Origin: Bacillota bacterium
GTDB lineage: Bacteria; Bacillota; UBA4882; UBA10575
Direction of reading: 5' to 3'
Length of the DNA: 64,000 nucleotides
NCBI GenBank assembly: GCA_012735135.1
Contig: JAAYHY010000104.1
Location: forward strand, 1 to 64,000
A program made the position numbers and the translations under genes. Below the pieces are notes generated by a model. It saw only the letters and a list, made by a program, of their open reading frames with translations, made no database searches and was not told where the DNA came from. This document shows, piece by piece, positions 3,475 to 48,396 of the stretch (position 1 is its first letter; each line of letters opens with the position of its first letter).

Positions 3475-4803
3475 TTAAAATACCTTGCCTACAAACGCAA
3501 AGACGGGTTCCATCCCTTCTTCCGTAAAGGCCAGATCCAAACAGATGTCAAACAAGGGAGTATTATAAAGGATACCCGTGCCCACACTTTTTTGGAGGGC
3601 AAAGTCGGCCTGGTCATTATAAACCGTACCGAGGTCGGTAAAGATTCTCCACTGCAGCGCTCCTAAAAATGGTTTCCGGGAACGGTGAAAAAGATTAAAA
3701 CTCCTTTCTAAACAGAGCAGGACGAGGTTAACCCCTTCCCGGTCATCAGAACCGTACCCCCGCACCAGGTTATTAAAATGCATGTTTATTTCCCGGCCCT
3801 GATTGATATGGCCTAAAAAGAGCAGGCCACGGTAGTTATGATAACGCAACGGCAGCCTTAGCCTGTAGACTTGGTAGTTTTCTTTTTCCACGGTACCGAA
3901 GGTAGCACTGAAACTGTAACTAAGGTTTTTCCCCCAATCGTCATAGAGATGACTCGCGGCAAAAACTGTGGCCAGTTGGGTATTGACCGGTTCTTTCATT
4001 TTGTCGCCACGTCCGATTTCCCCGGCGAAAAGCGCCAGATTAAAATAGCTACCCAAACCGTTATCGTAGGTAAACTGGGTCTTAAGACCATCCTGATAGT
4101 GGTAGCCCGGGTGGAGTGAGTTGCTTTCCCGAAAATAACCTAGTTCAGCCCAGGTGGGTAGGGTAAATGTATATTTTGCCGACAGATTGTAATAGAAAAG
4201 ATCATAGGATAAATCATAAGAACCACTGAGATTGGGCGAAAATTGTCTGTATTTAGCAGTCACGCCGGCGCCTAGCACCACTTCATTAAAAGGAAGAATT
4301 GGGTAGAAACTTACCTGAAAAGGTTTTTCCACTTGGGCCAGGATCTTGGCCAACTCGGCTTTGGCCGCCTCGTTCTTTTCGTAGATGGAAAGGAATTCGT
4401 TCAAGGCGGACAACGCTTTTTCCCTTTGTCCATCAAGGAGGTAGGCCCTTCCTAGGCGGCAGGCGGTAAGGGAATCCTGTTCTTCGTCTCCGAAGGAAGG
4501 CAGGTTCTCCAAAATTTTAATCGCTTTTTTCGGATGGTGGCCTAATAAATAGGGGGCTTGAATTAGATACTCGGCCATGAATCCCTGGGCATTGTAATTA
4601 TCCGGATCCGAAATTAATGTCTCCTCCAGTAAAAGATAGGCCTGGGGGAGGTAGGCAAACTCGTAAATAAAGCCGCGACCAGAGGGTCTTTCTAGAATCT
4701 CTTCAGCAAGTAACTGATGGTTCTCAATTTCACCCGCCAAGACTTGAACCCGACAAGTTAGGACCAAGGTTAGAAATAGAAGAATAAAAACCCTTTTTTT
4801 CAT
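3475..4803 (-). CDS. Exported TPR protein with Omp85-like C-terminal beta-barrel
   Basis: 442 residues with a clear signal peptide (MKKRVFILLFLTLVLTCRVQVLA). Residues about 30-165 are helical and read as tetratricopeptide-like repeats (DSLTACRLGRAYLLDGQREKALSALNEF). From about 170 on, the sequence alternates polar and aromatic residues like membrane beta-strands. It contains VRGYGSDDREG, matching the conserved (V/F)RG(Y/F) loop motif of the BamA/TpsB/Omp85 surface-antigen domain. It also has IFTDLGTVY, like the FxDxG strand motif, and ends in an aromatic residue (FVGKVF), the usual outer-membrane insertion signal. POTRA domains are absent; TPRs sit in their place. It lies just downstream of the LolA-like gene and a B repeat. 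I infer an outer-membrane protein. Confidence 0.65.
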   Translation of the reverse strand: MKKRVFILLFLTLVLTCRVQVLAGEIENHQLLAEEILERPSGRGFIYEFAYLPQAYLLLEETLISDPDNYNAQGFMAEYLIQAPYLLGHHPKKAIKILENLPSFGDEEQDSLTACRLGRAYLLDGQREKALSALNEFLSIYEKNEAAKAELAKILAQVEKPFQVSFYPILPFNEVVLGAGVTAKYRQFSPNLSGSYDLSYDLFYYNLSAKYTFTLPTWAELGYFRESNSLHPGYHYQDGLKTQFTYDNGLGSYFNLALFAGEIGRGDKMKEPVNTQLATVFAASHLYDDWGKNLSYSFSATFGTVEKENYQVYRLRLPLRYHNYRGLLFLGHINQGREINMHFNNLVRGYGSDDREGVNLVLLCLERSFNLFHRSRKPFLGALQWRIFTDLGTVYNDQADFALQKSVGTGILYNTPLFDICLDLAFTEEGMEPVFAFVGKVF

Positions 4804-4825
4804 AATATTTGACCTCCTTTACCTA

Positions 4826-4909
4826 GAAAACGCCTTCGAAGCTTGTCGACTCACCCGGCTTTAATTTCCATCCCTTCTTGTGCTGGCAGAAGCCGGCGTG
4901 GGCAACTAC
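4826..4909 (-). repeat. Element B copy 1 (hairpin repeat)
   Basis: Read on the minus strand, it starts at the stop codon of the upstream gene (GTAGTTGCCCACGCCGGCTT) and ends with AAAGCCGGGTGAGTCGAC plus a TTCGAAGGCGTTTTC tail, 23 bases before the ATG of the next gene. The two quoted blocks are imperfect reverse complements and would form a long hairpin. The right half aligns almost base for base with copies at 22612 and 42593. Confidence 0.7.
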
Positions 4910-5748
4910 TTATATGTTTTGTCCCTTTCGCTTTCAATAAGGGCCCCCCAATCCTCTTTACTCACCTTTTTAGCCCACTGTAACTCGAGAATTTGCCCGT
5001 TTGGATAATAGGAACCCACATCATTAAAATCTTCAATCTTCACGATCTTACAGGTATCATCATTGGCAATCCAGATGTAAAAATCTTTCCCGAACATCGC
5101 CGCGAGCAACCCTTTACCGGTAAATTTATATTTCTGGCAGCCCACCCCGTTGACGCTCTCTTGACCAAGGTCCTCTCCGGCAAGATCACAATAAAGACCG
5201 TAGCGGTAGTAACCTACCTCAAATTTCTTTTGTTTTTGATTTAAAAATTTCATCCCCAAGGCAAGTTCGGTTGTTCTTTCAAAGGTGGGAAGCCTTTTAA
5301 ACTTTATTTGCTCGACATAGCTATTGATTGCCCCTTTTTTATCCCTGGACTTGCCTTCGCATTGCCAGTAATAATCATAAAAATTATCAACCGTTCGGCG
5401 GTGACTGATCGTATAATTGGGCGGGACATTTTCAACCGGATTCAAACATCTTATCTCCCTGCGCTTTGGCATAAAATAACGCCAGTCATATTCATAAAGA
5501 TAATGATAGACCACTGTGGGGTTTTTATAGGTAAAAAGGGTTTCAACTACATCTTCCGCGCTTATGTAAATGTAGTAGTCGCATATTCCACCCGTCTCAT
5601 CCCCCACGCCGGCACTAGTGTAGTAATACAAGGTACCAACGGCTATTTTATTCCGGTCAAAAACAAACAGATCCAAACTGTCACGGGCATCCACCGTTGA
5701 GCCTATCGCCAAAATCAATAAAAAAAGAAACAAGGTTACTTTCTTCAT
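4906..5748 (-). CDS. Exported protein, LolA/LppX-like fold suspected
   Basis: 280 residues from MKKVTLF, chosen because GGAGGTG sits seven bases before that ATG (5748). It has a signal peptide (LFLFLLILAIGSTVDA) without a lipobox Cys. The mature part is rich in Tyr and short beta-strands. The C-terminal segment (VNGVGCQKYKFTGKG, FYIWIANDDTCKIVKIE, ILELQWAKKV) follows the order typical of outer-membrane lipoprotein-sorting-like or DUF4412-like proteins, where a strand with a reducible Cys precedes a pair of strands. I cannot assign a family with certainty. Its stop codon TAG lies inside element B copy 1, and the Omp85-like gene follows, so both are probably one transcript with an envelope role. 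Confidence 0.5.
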   Translation of the reverse strand: MKKVTLFLFLLILAIGSTVDARDSLDLFVFDRNKIAVGTLYYYTSAGVGDETGGICDYYIYISAEDVVETLFTYKNPTVVYHYLYEYDWRYFMPKRREIRCLNPVENVPPNYTISHRRTVDNFYDYYWQCEGKSRDKKGAINSYVEQIKFKRLPTFERTTELALGMKFLNQKQKKFEVGYYRYGLYCDLAGEDLGQESVNGVGCQKYKFTGKGLLAAMFGKDFYIWIANDDTCKIVKIEDFNDVGSYYPNGQILELQWAKKVSKEDWGALIESERDKTYK

Positions 5749-17400: not shown

Positions 17401-17703
17401 CCCTTGACCTCCTTATTTTAATCTTATTTTTTATTAAATTAGAAGAACCTTCCCCCCAGACTCACCTCCCAACTGGCCAGCAAGACATCGTTTTGCCTTA
17501 ACTTTGGTAAAGAACAAATCCATATGTTATGATTAAAATTTTAAATACATAAAGTTCTTCATAGAACTAGATTTATCCTTTTTTAATAACCAATATTATT
17601 ACAAAAAACCAAAAAGCATCCCTCCAGAGATGCTTTTTGGCTAAATCGCTCTCGCTACTTACTTCCGGCTTTACCCATCCAACAGGCGACTACTTTGCCT
17701 TTA
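17401..17703. other. Intergenic region upstream of the importer operon
   Basis: Contains AT-rich promoter-like sequence near 17515-17600, the terminator at 17609-17640, and near 17640-17700 a decayed B-like repeat (CCGGCTTTA followed later by GGCGACTAC). No gene was seen. Confidence 0.4.
17609..17640 (-). terminator. Terminator of the ABC-2 exporter operon
   Basis: CCAAAAAGCATC and GATGCTTTTTGG form a perfect 12-bp stem with built-in A/T tracts, about 65 bases beyond the exporter ATPase stop codon. Confidence 0.8.
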
Positions 17704-22487: not shown

Positions 22488-22611
22488 CAGATGTTCCCTC
22501 CCCGTGCCCCTATGCTCAATCTTCCCCTGCCAATGACATGTCTTGGTTTACGTACTCGCCGGTTATGCCAATTATCACCTCGAAGGGAACGAATAGTGTT
22601 CTTCGTTACTC

Positions 22612-22700
22612 AGAGAATACCTTCGATGTTTGTCGACTCACCCGGCTTTGAATTTCATTACTCAGTTCAAAACTGACAGTAGCCGGCGTGAGCGACTACC
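22612..22700 (-). repeat. Element B copy 2
   Basis: On the minus strand it starts GGTAGTCGCTCACGCCGGCT. It ends AAAGCCGGGTGAGTCGACA plus a CATCGAAGGTATTCTC tail. The halves are reverse complements with small bulges. It follows element A copy 1 directly, and the macrodomain gene starts about 125 bases further on. Confidence 0.75.
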
Positions 22701-22870
22701 TTGAATTTCTTCGTCAGATCTTTGCGAAGCGGAGCTTGAAAGCGGGTCGCGCGGCAGGGAAGCCGTGCGCCCTGTTGGTTAAGGAGGAACCATCAAGCGG
22801 TTACCCGCTTTCAACGGAGCTGAACTTTAGAATACGCGAAGAAATTCTTTGGAGCGAGGAAACACCATTC
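22693..22870 (-). ncRNA. Element A copy 1, candidate structured RNA
   Basis: Noncoding element between the phosphoglucomutase and macrodomain genes. On the minus strand its 63-base core (GCGTATTCTAAAG to TTAACCAA) matches element A copy 2 with only five differences. An outer stem GAATTTCTTCG (22703-22713)/CGAAGAAATTC (22837-22847) closes it with 11 perfect pairs. Inside are a hairpin AAGCGG-GTAA-CCGCTT with a GNRA loop and GGTT-CCTCCTT-AACC, whose loop equals the anti-Shine-Dalgarno sequence. A second 12-bp pairing (22736-22747 with 22803-22814) is mutually exclusive with the GNRA hairpin. The strand is inferred from the GNRA loop. The ORF drawn over it on the plus strand is not credible. Confidence 0.5.
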
Positions 22871-29017: not shown

Positions 29018-29045
29018 AAAAACCTGCTTAAAAAGCAGGTTTTTT
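29018..29045 (+). terminator. Terminator after the sugar importer operon
   Basis: AAAAACCTGCTT and AAGCAGGTTTTT form a 12-bp stem with intrinsic A and T tracts, flanked by GCAA/TTGC that extends it. It serves both convergent operons. Confidence 0.85.
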
Positions 29046-29061
29046 CGTTGCTTTAATTTAC

Positions 29062-29107
29062 ATCACCCGGTCCAAGCTAGGCGATGGCCAACTTGGGGAA
29101 CTACCTA
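29062..29107 (-). repeat. Decayed element B copy
   Basis: Starting at the TAG stop of the NSS transporter, the minus strand reads GGTAGTTCCCCAAGTTGGCC and later GGACCGGGTGATG, following the order of the full B copies with several changes and shortening. Confidence 0.4.
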
Positions 29108-30484
29108 AAAGAAATTGGCGGCAATAAGATTGATAATAATTATCGCTGGAACCAGGTATTTGATTAACGGCTCCCACCAGTCTTCCACCTTAATCTTTTC
29201 CGCGCCGAGGTTAACCTGTTCTTTGAATTTCTTGAAACCAATGCTCCAGGCGGTGAAGAGGCACATAATCAGACCGGAAAGGATCAGGAAGATATTGGCG
29301 GAAACAACATCAAAGAAGGTGAACATATCCATCCCAAACCATTTGATGTGGGCCAGGGGTCCACAAGCCAGCACGGAGAAGAGACTCAGCGCGAAGGTGA
29401 CTGCAATGCTGAGCCAGGTGGCTTTCACCCGGTCTTTACTCCGGTCCATCTTAAAGAGGTCCATAATCGAACTGGATAGAAACTCGGTAAAAGCGATGGC
29501 GGAAGTAAGCGCGGCAATCAGGACACCTATGAAGAACAAGATACCGATAATCGTGCCGCCGGGCATAGTCGCAAAGACGCTGGGCATTGTTTTAAAGAGG
29601 AGGCCAAAACCGGCGTCGGGCTGGACACCAACGGCAAAAGCGGCGGGGAAGATCACCAGGCCGGCCAGTAAAGCAAAACCGGTGTCCATGAATACAACTT
29701 TGGTGATGTCGGAAGGAATATCCGCATCTTTCTTAAGATAACTCCCATAGACCCAACTGGCGCCTTGTCCAACGCCAATGGATAAAAAGACCTGTCCGAT
29801 GGCGGCAACGACCGCACTGAAACTGAGCTTGGAAAAATCGGGTTTAAGGTAAAATTTTAGTCCTTGTCCCGCCCCGGGTAATGTCATCGAATAAACAGCC
29901 AGACCGGCAAATAAAAGAACCATGAGGGGCATGGCCACTTTCGCCACGGCTTCCACCCCTTTGACCAACCCCCGGGCCACGATAACCCCAAGCATTACGA
30001 GGACAAGAATTTCATAGATCAGGGTTGTGCCGGTGTTGGTATAAAGGGAGTCAAACCAGAGGGAAATTGCTTGGAGATTCATGCCCCTGAAAGTACCGGT
30101 CAGGAAAGCAACGGCATACTTTAAAACCCACCCGATAATCATCACGTAGTAGGAGAAGATCATGAGACCACCGATAAAACCAAAGATCCCGCCTAACTGC
30201 CAGAATTTATTCTTTGTTAGCTTAATATTCCCGGTGATCGGCGAACTTTGCGACTCCCGGCCCAAGTTATATTCGACAATCATGAGCGGGATCCCCATCA
30301 CTACGGCCACTGCCAGGTAGACCAAAAGAAAGGCCGCCCCGCCGTATTGACCGGTAATATAAGGGAATCTCCAAATATTACCTAGCCCAATACTCCAACT
30401 GGCGGCGGCAAAGATGAATCCGATCCGGGAAGCCCAAGATTCCCGCTTGGCCACGGTGGATACTTCTGTAGTTTTGTTTGACAT
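29105..30484 (-). CDS. Sodium-dependent transporter, NSS family
   Basis: 459 residues with about eleven membrane helices; sodium-coupled amino-acid uptake is the expected role. The family hallmark at helix 1 is GLGNIWRFPYITGQYGG, and GVGQGASWVYGSYL and ALTSAIAFTEFLSSSIMD follow the LeuT/MhsT layout. The ATG at 30484 has AGGAGG eight bases upstream; the longer ORF runs into the ridA gene. It is the third gene after a cysteine desulfidase and a RidA protein, so cysteine is a reasonable guess for its substrate, though not proven by sequence. Confidence 0.92.
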   Translation of the reverse strand: MSNKTTEVSTVAKRESWASRIGFIFAAASWSIGLGNIWRFPYITGQYGGAAFLLVYLAVAVVMGIPLMIVEYNLGRESQSSPITGNIKLTKNKFWQLGGIFGFIGGLMIFSYYVMIIGWVLKYAVAFLTGTFRGMNLQAISLWFDSLYTNTGTTLIYEILVLVMLGVIVARGLVKGVEAVAKVAMPLMVLLFAGLAVYSMTLPGAGQGLKFYLKPDFSKLSFSAVVAAIGQVFLSIGVGQGASWVYGSYLKKDADIPSDITKVVFMDTGFALLAGLVIFPAAFAVGVQPDAGFGLLFKTMPSVFATMPGGTIIGILFFIGVLIAALTSAIAFTEFLSSSIMDLFKMDRSKDRVKATWLSIAVTFALSLFSVLACGPLAHIKWFGMDMFTFFDVVSANIFLILSGLIMCLFTAWSIGFKKFKEQVNLGAEKIKVEDWWEPLIKYLVPAIIIINLIAANFF

Positions 30485-32222: not shown

Positions 32223-32542
32223 TCCTCCATCTCCTTTATCAATGATGCAGCATAACCCAACTTCTCTGTTCGCTTCAATAAATTTAATAATTAAGATTAA
32301 TGATCGGTCACCTCTTTCCTCTGGAGTTCTAACCTCTTTGTCCTCAAGAATAATACTTTGGTCTTATAGTTGACATAAACTTTCTTGGTTTTTTTAACCC
32401 CCTTCTCACCTTTTATTACCTTATCTGTAACATCCGGATAAAGGCAATAAAAATCCCTGATCGATCGGGAGTAACAGAAATCCCCGGATCAATCAGGGGT
32501 TACATCAGAAAGGCCCACGCTGCTGGTCGACCCACCCGGGTT
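32223..32542. other. Intergenic region between regulator and desulfidase operon
   Basis: Holds the regulator operon's terminator (32453-32502) and the right half of an element B copy. The part nearest the desulfidase gene is AT-rich and could hold its promoter, but I could not identify one firmly. Confidence 0.4.
32453..32502 (-). terminator. Terminator of the PocR-kinase/regulator operon
   Basis: On the minus strand, CCCCTGATTGATC pairs with GATCGATCAGGG around an internal loop, and is followed by ATTTTTATT. Confidence 0.7.
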
Positions 32543-32550
32543 TTATAAAA
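32507..32550 (-). repeat. Partial element B copy (right half)
   Basis: Immediately after the regulator stop, the minus strand reads ACCCGGGTGGGTCGACCAGC and then a GGCCTTTC tail. This aligns with the right half of full B copies; the left half is absent. Confidence 0.5.
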
Positions 32551-41678: not shown

Positions 41679-42578
41679 TCAGCGGTTCACCGAACGGGCC
41701 ATCCGCCGGTAAGTATGGCGACGGCCGCGAATGGCTAGACTGTAACGGAGAATATTCTCCGGAACCGCAATTCCGGGGTAACCCGCATCACCAATATGGT
41801 GAAGATCGGTTCCGGTCATTTTGCAAAGGAGGGCAATCTCCCGAATCGTTTCCGCATCAGCCCCTTCTTGTGAAGTTCCGATGGTGGTCATCGTCAGAAC
41901 TCCACGGCGATGGGCTACTTGCACCAAACCCCTGATATACTCCATCGTAATCCCCGGTACTGTTCCGGGGGCCGGGAGTAAAAGCACATCACAACCCGCA
42001 GCGATAAACTCTTCCACCTCTTCGGCGGTGACCAGTTCCGTTCCGCTCTCTTCGATGACACCGGCAGCATGCATTTTACCGGCGCCGATAAACAGTTCAT
42101 CCCCGACTTCCTGCTTAATTTGGGTTAGTGCTTTGGTGATCTCCCGGTTCGAGGCGGCGGTACCGGGGTTCCCGGTCAGAACGATAAAATCGGCGCCCAT
42201 CTCCCGCGCCCGCCGGGCGTTAAGGATAGAAGCGCGACGCCCAGGGGGCACCCGGGTGGACTCGCCTACCGCTTCCAGATTAACCCCAATTAGCCTTCCC
42301 GTCAACCTTTTAATCTCCCTGATTACCGCGGCGGGTTCATGGGGAGGGAGACCATAATAGACCGGATTTTCCAGATCAAGCATATTCAGAAGGAGCAGGT
42401 CGGCGCCGCAGGCGGCGGCCAGTTCCGCATTGCTGATATCAAATAACAAGGGAGGAAAGGCGCCGATGACTTCACTAACTAACACCCGGCCTTCACTGGC
42501 GGCAATGGACGCCAAGATCTCCGCTTTGGTCATCCCTTGCCAATCAGAAGTACTACAATCAAGAAAGCGCTGAACCAT
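41679..42578 (-). CDS. Conserved TIM-barrel-like protein of GlcNAc loci (PEP-mutase-like in some databases)
   Basis: 299 residues from MVQRFLDC, with GAGGTG six bases before this ATG. The sequence alternates strands ending in DLLLLNMLDLE, RLIGVNLEAVG, DFIVLTGNPG, ELFIGAGKMHA and CDVLLLPAPGTVPG, a typical eight-fold barrel order. The middle GESTRVPPGRRAS and the end LHHIGDAGYPGIAVPENI look like phosphate or active-site loops. Proteins of this kind are sometimes annotated as PEP phosphonomutase-like or DUF7916; the reaction is not established to my knowledge. Placement between PTS components and nagA suggests a role in amino-sugar or PTS-linked metabolism. Confidence 0.6.
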   Translation of the reverse strand: MVQRFLDCSTSDWQGMTKAEILASIAASEGRVLVSEVIGAFPPLLFDISNAELAAACGADLLLLNMLDLENPVYYGLPPHEPAAVIREIKRLTGRLIGVNLEAVGESTRVPPGRRASILNARRAREMGADFIVLTGNPGTAASNREITKALTQIKQEVGDELFIGAGKMHAAGVIEESGTELVTAEEVEEFIAAGCDVLLLPAPGTVPGITMEYIRGLVQVAHRRGVLTMTTIGTSQEGADAETIREIALLCKMTGTDLHHIGDAGYPGIAVPENILRYSLAIRGRRHTYRRMARSVNR

Positions 42579-42592
42579 CTTGACCACCTCGA

Positions 42593-42681
42593 ATCAGAAA
42601 ATGCTATGATGCTTGTCGCCTCATCAAGCTTTGATTTAATACCCTTTTGAAATTGATGCGTCGCTGGTATGGGCGATTACC
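42593..42681 (-). repeat. Element B copy 3
   Basis: On the minus strand, GGTAATCGCCCATACCAGCG begins it. It ends AATCAAAGCTTGATGAGGCG plus an ACAAGCATCATAGCATTTTC tail, only 15 bases before the next ATG. Its inner stem bases differ from copies 1 and 2 but are still complementary (ATCAA/TTGAT, GGGCGAT region with GGCGAC), suggesting structure is preserved. Confidence 0.65.
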
Positions 42682-42698
42682 ATTAATTTTATAAGGAT

Positions 42699-42722
42699 TG
42701 CAGGAGCCTTTAGGCTCCTGCA
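42699..42722 (-). terminator. Terminator after the EIICB remnant
   Basis: TGCAGGAGCC-TTTA-GGCTCCTGCA, a perfect 10-bp stem, 25 bases beyond the EIIB stop on the minus strand. Confidence 0.75.
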
Positions 42723-42746
42723 GACCTTTTACTTGGTTATGACGCT

Positions 42747-46327: not shown

Positions 46328-46356
46328 CCGGAGCTGAATGGTGTCCCTTGCTCCGG
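46328..46356 (+). terminator. Hairpin after ptsH, entering element A copy 2
   Basis: CCGGAGC and GCTCCGG form a 7-bp stem around a 15-base loop beginning one base past the ptsH stop. There is no T-run, so terminator function is tentative; it overlaps the first bases of element A. Confidence 0.4.
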
Positions 46357-46456
46357 TGAATCGCCTGGCGTATTCTAAAGCTCAGCTTCGTTGAAAGCGG
46401 GCAACCGCTTGATGGTTCCTCTTGAACCAAAAGCGGCCGGCGGCGATCCCATTACC
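46336..46456 (+). ncRNA. Element A copy 2, candidate structured RNA
   Basis: Noncoding stretch between convergent ptsH and the metallo-hydrolase gene. It shares GAATGGTGT and the 63-base core with element A copy 1 (five differences). Outer stem ATCGCC (46360-46365)/GGCGAT (46442-46447) occupies the same position as the unrelated 11-bp stem of copy 1. Inner hairpins are AAGCGG-GCAA-CCGCTT, where the loop stays GNRA although its base changed, and GGTTC-CTCTT-GAACC. Confidence 0.5.
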
Positions 46457-47178: not shown

Positions 47179-47514
47179 TCCAATGCCCTCCTTCTTCTTC
47201 CTCCCGGAATGATGAGCGCGCCCCTGATTGTTCTCCCCTGTTTTATCTTTTTGAAAAACTTATCTTCACGCAAGGAATCATCTCCTGGATTTTTTTGGGA
47301 ATAAACTCCATATAATAAGTAGGCTAATCGAATTAAAACTGGGCTTTACCACATTTTTTAGCTAAGCCCGACAAAAAATTGGCCAAAAACTAACCAGTGC
47401 GGAAAATTCAATCTTCTTTTGCATCTTTTTTTCCCGGGCGCATATTATTTTAGTAACTTGCCGGTAGTCGCTCACGCCGGCTTCCGCCAGAAAAACAGTT
47501 AACGGGGGATTTCC
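47179..47514. other. Divergent region before the chaperone/usher-like locus
   Basis: About 335 bases, AT-rich from 47290 to 47420, presumably with promoters in both directions, though none was placed firmly. The last 55 bases include a left-half B element. Confidence 0.4.
47459..47495 (+). repeat. Partial element B copy (left half)
   Basis: GGTAGTCGCTCACGCCGGCT followed by TCCGCCAG matches the left half of B copies 1 and 2 and ends 20 bases before the ATG at 47515. The right half is absent. Confidence 0.55.
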
Positions 47515-48396
47515 ATGAAAAACCGTGTTCATTTATGGGTCTGCCTGATCTTTACAGTAACGTTTTGTCTTATCGCGCCGGCGGCGGCAGGGGAGTTGCA
47601 ATTCTTAACTTTTCCGGCGGTGGCGCCGGTCACTGAGACAAGTCTTTCCTTACCCTTTACCCTACCGGCGTCCACCGCATCAGCCGTTAGCTTCCGGTGC
47701 TCCGCCTTAATGGATACAGCAACCGGAAACCGGATTAGTCCGGACCGCATTTCGCTCTCCTACAATCAGAAAACGGTTGGCCCCAACCAACTGCTCACCC
47801 TGACCCCGCAGCCAACGGGAGGGCCGGAAGCAGGGAGCACCCGTGAATTTGGGCTGCAGATCAATTTTCTTCCCTCCGATCCCCCGGGCGAATACGAGGG
47901 AATAATCGAAGCGGTTCTTCACCATTCAACGCAAGACACGGAACGGATCTCCCTTTGGGTAAAAACCCGGGTCTTGCCCTGGATTAAACTGGAACGAGTA
48001 TCGGGCCAGCCTTTTCCGGGCTTCGATTCTCTTTCTTCCCTTACTGAAAGCAATTTGACGATCACCGAACCACTCAAACTGTTACTTGCCTCCAACACCC
48101 ACTGGCAGCTGTATCTGAGAGTCGGGACGGCCATACCCCATCATGATCCGGAATTTCCTCTCCAGATTAGGATTGGGCGCCCCGGTAAAGCAGGGGAGGA
48201 GAAAAAAACGCTCCTGGCCAACGGCCCCGCTCAGCTGGTCGCGGCTGGCCCGCCGACGGTGGTTGGAGATGGTTTGACGCCTGCCAATTACTGGACCGAA
48301 CTTTATCTTTCCGCTTCCATTGCCGACTGGCGCCAATACCCCACCGGAAATCATCAGTTGACTTTTTACCTTTCCGGTCAGACTATCACCCCGTAA
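47515..48396 (+). CDS. Exported pilin-like/surface subunit candidate (tandem beta domains)
   Basis: 293 residues with a signal peptide ending APAAAG. I do not recognise a named family. The mature protein looks like two all-beta domains. Each ends in a short pilin-like closing pattern, Gly-x-(Tyr/His)-x-x-x-(Ile/Leu)-x-(Ala/Phe): PPGEYEGIIEAVLHH near 140 and PTGNHQLTFYLSG at the C-terminus. Only one Cys is left after cleavage. It is the first of four exported genes on the same strand ahead of a PapD-like chaperone and usher-like gene, so a structural or adaptor subunit is the best guess. GGGGGAT precedes the ATG. Confidence 0.5.
   Translation: MKNRVHLWVCLIFTVTFCLIAPAAAGELQFLTFPAVAPVTETSLSLPFTLPASTASAVSFRCSALMDTATGNRISPDRISLSYNQKTVGPNQLLTLTPQPTGGPEAGSTREFGLQINFLPSDPPGEYEGIIEAVLHHSTQDTERISLWVKTRVLPWIKLERVSGQPFPGFDSLSSLTESNLTITEPLKLLLASNTHWQLYLRVGTAIPHHDPEFPLQIRIGRPGKAGEEKKTLLANGPAQLVAAGPPTVVGDGLTPANYWTELYLSASIADWRQYPTGNHQLTFYLSGQTITP

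Follow-up and report, generated by a model that had tools for sequence, protein, structure and literature searches.

Repeats of the REP type are considered dependent on RAYT transposases, and a head-to-tail order is rare among such repeats. The GTAG repeats described by Di Nocera and co-workers occur in Proteobacteria, Cyanobacteria, Chloroflexi and the PVC group; their stems are mostly 6-13 bp long, with short loops, and they often supply a TAG stop (PMC3733652). TnpA-REP recognises the GTAG together with a bulge and cleaves at the CT next to the hairpin (PMC8266576). In the B. cereus group, the bcr repeats are, as far as the description in PMC6542083 goes, interspersed elements of 100-400 nt that are mobile with no known enzyme, and their short, repeated end motif suggests a mechanism resembling site-specific recombination.

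Here, we describe element B, a repeat found in the window, by which we mean the whole 64,000-nucleotide stretch of DNA that was analysed. Element B is a family of small mobile DNA elements that are non-autonomous and probably move as a single-strand hairpin. The family is REP-like, and is filed outside REP proper on account of its size and of the outcome of the RAYT search. An earlier note on this DNA had offered two readings, a REP-like palindrome family or a conserved leader RNA. The former is well supported by the many copies, the GTAG foot, the bulged imperfect palindrome, the compensatory stem variants and the TAG stops provided for neighbouring genes.

Copies of element B in the window and in related genomes

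Read along the minus strand, the element consists of GGTAGTCGCYCACGCCGGCT, a loop of 30-38 nt, AAAGCCGGGTGAGTCGACAAGC and, last, TCGAAGGYRTTTTCTAGGTAG. The window contains three full copies, two halves and a decayed one, as follows.

4820-4911, minus strand: full copy 1; covariance model R1, E 2e-21 in the unfiltered window scan (match 4826-4911)
4909-4906 (GTAG foot), 4906-4891 (left arm), then the loop, 4860-4845 (right arm), minus strand: parts of copy 1, read from the sequence
4839-4820, minus strand: tail and end box of copy 1, TTTTCTAGGTA, read from the sequence
22607-22701, minus strand: full copy 2; R1, E 5e-23
22696-22681 (left arm), 22647-22632 (right arm), tail with end box TATTCTCTGAGTA, as far as 22607, minus strand: parts of copy 2
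42590-42682, minus strand: copy 3, full but decayed; R1, E 2e-8
42677-42662 (left arm), 42630-42615 (right arm), tail to 42590, minus strand: parts of copy 3
47463-47490, plus strand: left half copy only, GGTAGTCGCTCACGCCGGCTTCCGCCAG; exact 20-mer arm match, directly upstream of the gene at 47515
32500-32546, minus strand: right half copy, CCCGGGTGGGTCGACCAGCAGCGTGGGCCTTTCTGATG; arm-2 search and inspection by eye, right behind the upstream TAA stop
29038-29106, minus strand: probable decayed copy starting with TTTTAGGTAG; R1, E 0.59 only, and context

The three full copies listed in the earlier note are therefore real, and so are the half copies it had placed near 47459 and 32507, the former through its exact 20-mer arm and the latter as a right half evident by eye. 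The decayed copy it had reported at 29062 is less firm: its TTTTAGGTAG start lies at the stop codon of the gene at 29105-30484, as in real copies, but the model returned the E value of 0.59 only. Two further decayed copies, at 17640 and 36467, were indistinguishable from chance. The TAG of copy 1 is the stop of the upstream gene (4906-5748, minus strand), and the next gene starts at 4803 (genes were called by a hexamer-based caller, and start codons are approximate). Copy 3 has a terminator (42698-42723) on one side and the ribosome-binding site of the gene at 41679-42578 on the other.

Copy 2 is located on the edge of another repeat (22712-22860). This repeat and the one at 46346-46433 represent a second, larger family with a AAAGCGGG hairpin and GAAATTTCTTCGCG ends; the pair, 88 nt and 84% alike, lies in opposite orientation. 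Element B was seen at or within the right end of the second repeat in several loci (C7, C48, C69, C142).

In the 2.56-Mb draft genome that contains the window, the 20-nt left arm gave 49 matches with ≤3 mismatches, and the reversed-pattern control gave 1. From 34 units, a covariance model was built, which gave 69 matches genome-wide at E≤0.01; this count is far above the figure of about ten copies below which the earlier note would have given up the family, and the structure is conserved too. Among 16 genomes of the host's family, seven gave 69 (own genome), 51, 59, 31, 26, 111 and 135 matches and the other nine 0-8. The low-copy genomes include members of the same genus, within which copy number ranges from 1 to 69. 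Pattern counts outside the family were close to those of the controls, and the carriers identified in a species-genome scan were digester and other Bacillota MAGs. Annotated phages and plasmids searched for the element gave no match, and viral contigs gave 66 matches of a 16-mer, all of them devoid of the right arm, and no complete hairpin.

Hairpin units and stem covariation

Each unit forms an imperfect hairpin, ~65-70 nt in length. It comprises a GTAG foot, a stem of 15 bp, with a single G bulging out of the left arm and a single T out of the right, and a loop of at least 30 nt. A complete element comprises 1-3 such units, arranged head-to-tail or rarely nested, and then a fixed end box, TATTTTCTARGTAG. 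In two relatives, G011 (UBA5486) and G012 (UBA5388), two or three different units stand head-to-tail and are closed by GGGCTATTTTCTARGTAG, and some units are nested inside the loop of another. Tandem elements are joined exactly at the end box.

Other forms were also seen. Four loci of relatives (L033, L177, L186, L148) have the 5' and 3' ends of element B with other middles (e.g. CAGCTGGTCGTTCGGAGCGGCGTC ... GAGAATCGACAGACTAGTATTTTCTAATGTAG), which suggests a mosaic set of elements with common termini. Neighbouring repeats, GGCGAAATGTGAGACTAATCTCATTTTTGGCCTACCTTAAA ..., finish in the same TATTTTCTAGGTAG box at three loci (L069, L156, L136). In addition, relatives have a longer palindromic repeat, bounded by GGGAATTGCATAATTA / TAATTATGCAATTCCC, with a B-like hairpin mid-repeat (L089 1-190, L090 near 3035, and L076), indicating that the hairpin units are also carried by inverted-repeat elements.

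The pairing of the arms was evaluated against two kinds of control. In 34 sequences, 95.5% of cells were paired, compared with ≤49% when the partner was slid, and 35 cells were double-changed, compared with 9.0 (sd 2.5) after shuffling. Among 72 distinct arm pairs, pairing was 93.4% versus 87.0% (sd 0.5) in shuffles, and the bulges were retained (G in 65/72, T in 68/72). The pair types GTCG/CGAC, GTTG/CAAC, CCGGC/GCCGG, CCGCC/GGCGG and CCGAC/GTCGG coexist. The copies of the own genome alone showed 32 double changes versus 12.5±3.0 in shuffles, with 12.6% of cells broken. Since the copies are kin, the shuffles overstate significance, and as evidence of covariation more weight falls on the slid controls and on the bulges having persisted. 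The covariation could partly come from the spread of a few subfamily masters and not from per-locus selection.

Copy 2 folds better than chance (z -2.7 as RNA, -3.9 as DNA); copies 1 and 3 as RNA fold no better than shuffled sequence. The earlier observation that copy 3 had changed its stem and kept complementarity applies to 12 of the 15 pairs, but the other three are broken, and its fold is the shuffle-like one just mentioned. Rfam scans gave no match in the window at the gathering score, and six loci from relatives yielded none at E≤1 either. The idea that the left arm codes for a peptide (VVAHAGYRQ) was dropped because, by eye, the frame differs between copies.

Insertion sites, orientation and mobility

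In 95 non-tandem insertions in relatives, the left flank reads TWWYTAR immediately before the GTAG, with 1.0 bit of information at A, 0.65 at R and 0.3-0.4 bits further left; past the end box, the right side of these insertions has no consensus. The GTAG itself is kept as G in 82/95, T in 83/95, A in 93/95 and G in 95/95, the last G being adjacent to the search motif; this G is able to pair in the stem. Neither terminal inverted repeats nor a target-site duplication was seen, and direct repeats of TARGTAG stand at the two ends of the element.

These direct repeats, the arrays joined exactly at the box and the likeness of the target to the end box might also be produced by a site-specific recombinase, tyrosine or serine, that integrates a circle at end-box-like sites with TTTTCTARGTAG as the attachment core. 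We consider this unlikely, because the constraint is confined to the left half of the target, and the conserved bulged hairpins would lack a reason. No excision or circular form was observed.

TARGTAG provides stop codons in two frames, and the upstream gene terminates inside it in ~9 of 35 tandem loci of the own genome and in ~17 in relatives; the earlier remark that copies start at a stop codon thus proved to be general. Insertions lie at stop codons and between genes; both neighbouring genes run in the direction of the element at 72 loci and against it at 16. At gene-neutral (divergent) loci, the element followed the replication strand 4 to 3, and at loci opposing both genes 3 to 5; a replication-strand cause of the sense bias was rejected as not supported by the 4 to 3 split, in few cases. 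Targets resembling stop codons and T-tracts, or selection on transcripts, are more likely sources of the bias than the fork, although the numbers are small. Throughout the window (1-64000), the plus strand shows a negative GC skew, both in intergenic DNA and in genes of either direction, which makes the minus strand the leading strand there.

The bias of 72 to 16, and the double changes above shuffles in the own genome, would also be expected if the hairpin, after arriving as a mobile element, had been retained locus by locus as an intercistronic RNA element, such as an mRNA stabiliser or a processing site. The bias is, however, explicable by the target, many own-genome copies have broken pairs (the 12.6% of cells given above), and half copies persist, so that retention of this kind seems improbable to us.

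Mobility was shown by empty sites in sister species. Between secY and adk, a two-hairpin element sits exactly at the secY stop codon in the own genome only (1/8), and the seven sister genomes are free of it; in G006, the unoccupied target, TTTTCTAAAGTAG followed directly by GTGAAC, is visible. The leuD-leuB and ftsK-rodZ sites are each filled in 1/7, again the own genome only. At a bcrAD-like locus, one insertion point is common to the own genome and G006; the insertion in G005 is an independent one. The site of window copy 3 is empty in 3/3 sister species, in which the terminator and the ribosome-binding site are adjacent. The site of copy 1 is uninformative, as its upstream gene is not conserved in the single sister with an ortholog.

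Since the insertions sit in otherwise conserved operons, the other reading of the earlier note, a conserved leader RNA, fails. A structured leader (a riboswitch or a protein-binding leader) controlling the downstream genes would account for the sense orientation, the strong covariation and the fact that copies often stand right in front of a ribosome-binding site. It is nevertheless extremely unlikely: the element is missing from orthologous leaders in sister species, its copy number is patchy within the genus, Rfam gave no match, and the copies lie next to unrelated genes (DUF7916, phosphomannomutase, macro domain, symporter, secY, leuD, ftsK).

Moving enzyme and comparison with known systems

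The earlier note had proposed looking for a REP-associated transposase. Y1_Tnp (RAYT/IS200) had no match in six copy-rich genomes that are 83-99% complete, namely the own genome (99% complete), G001, G005, G006, G007 and G011. The copy-rich G012 has an IS200-like Y1 transposase gene (L090, about 1500-1950) that is broken by an in-frame TGA and TAG; it was rejected as the mover, as it is broken and its ends are without the element hairpin. An autonomous copy, with a coding element between both ends, was not seen in ~80 loci, a search limited by assembly gaps. The absence of inverted repeats, the sense bias and the structured, transcript-like body would suit a retro-copied (SINE-like) RNA or a miniature IS110-type element. 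Such an origin is very improbable: 15 of the 16 family genomes have no reverse transcriptase, and the own genome, G001, G005, G007 and G011 have no IS110 transposase.

We therefore return to a mobile single-strand hairpin as the preferred reading. The element inserts one way round, just 3' of a TWWYTAR target resembling its own end box. It would move in single-stranded form, and an enzyme would recognise the hairpin with its bulges and cut beside the foot, in the manner of the IS200/IS605 and REP transposases. Recognition of the hairpin by the mover is likely, and the GTAG foot, the bulged hairpin, the one-sided YT-AR target and the target-like right end make up the kind of trace left by single-strand HUH transposition. 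Against a single-strand mechanism, there is no orientation bias by replication strand (4 to 3, small numbers), and a lagging-strand route might predict one. The enzyme may have been lost, may be missing from the bins (e.g. on a plasmid), or may be of a kind missed by the profiles used. For the host, most copies would be hairpins that are tolerated between cistrons and provide stop codons, with any RNA effect secondary.

Dozens of recent insertions with visible pre-insertion sites are thus at hand, yet no RAYT in six copy-rich genomes, and the question of what moves REP-like hairpins without a RAYT becomes directly testable. This makes the family a good place to seek a new or hidden mover. More specifically, the family may have spread in Bacillota via single-strand recognition by an enzyme unrelated to RAYT/IS200, which copied head-to-tail modules while the stems diversified by compensatory change; we put this forward as a rather doubtful proposal.

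Non-autonomous derivatives of IS200/IS605 resemble element B in having no inverted repeats, no target duplication, a left-sided target, a target-like right end and hairpins with unpaired bases near the ends. However, the hairpin of element B begins at the cut site and theirs is subterminal, and element B has several repeated hairpins, with no tnpA found. The folded hairpin of integron attC likewise has an extrahelical G and T by eye; attC identity was rejected, also by eye, as the GTT/AAC cores stand in reversed order and there are no cassette arrays. Like element B, bcr1 and its relatives are, in the description of PMC6542083, interspersed Bacillota elements mobile without a known enzyme and with a repeated end motif. 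Compared by that description only, the motif is TTTAT in bcr and TARGTAG in element B, and the GTAG foot with a G/T-bulged stem does not form part of the description of bcr1.

The closest likeness to the GTAG-REPs lies in the GTAG tag, the bulged imperfect palindrome, the stem sub-families with complementary changes and the TAG stops supplied to open reading frames (PMC3733652, PMC8266576). In addition, CT adjoins the foot in the target consensus. Element B might accordingly be a strict GTAG-REP, spread by a RAYT recently lost from the lineages or missing from the bins, which we hold to be possible but tentative. Apart from the missing Y1_Tnp, its loop (30+ nt, mostly 2-15 in GTAG-REPs and REPINs) and total length (75-240 nt; the 3' end carries a fixed box) are far above those of REPs, its hairpin measures 65-70 nt compared with 20-40 bp for a whole REP palindrome, and its units are head-to-tail and nested, whereas theirs form head-head pairs. 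No RAYT was found in the six copy-rich genomes, and the hosts of element B are Bacillota, a phylum not listed in PMC3733652. Element B thus extends GTAG-tagged repeats to uncultured digester Bacillota, and its modular hairpins with compensatory stem types provide a natural data set on what the mover reads.
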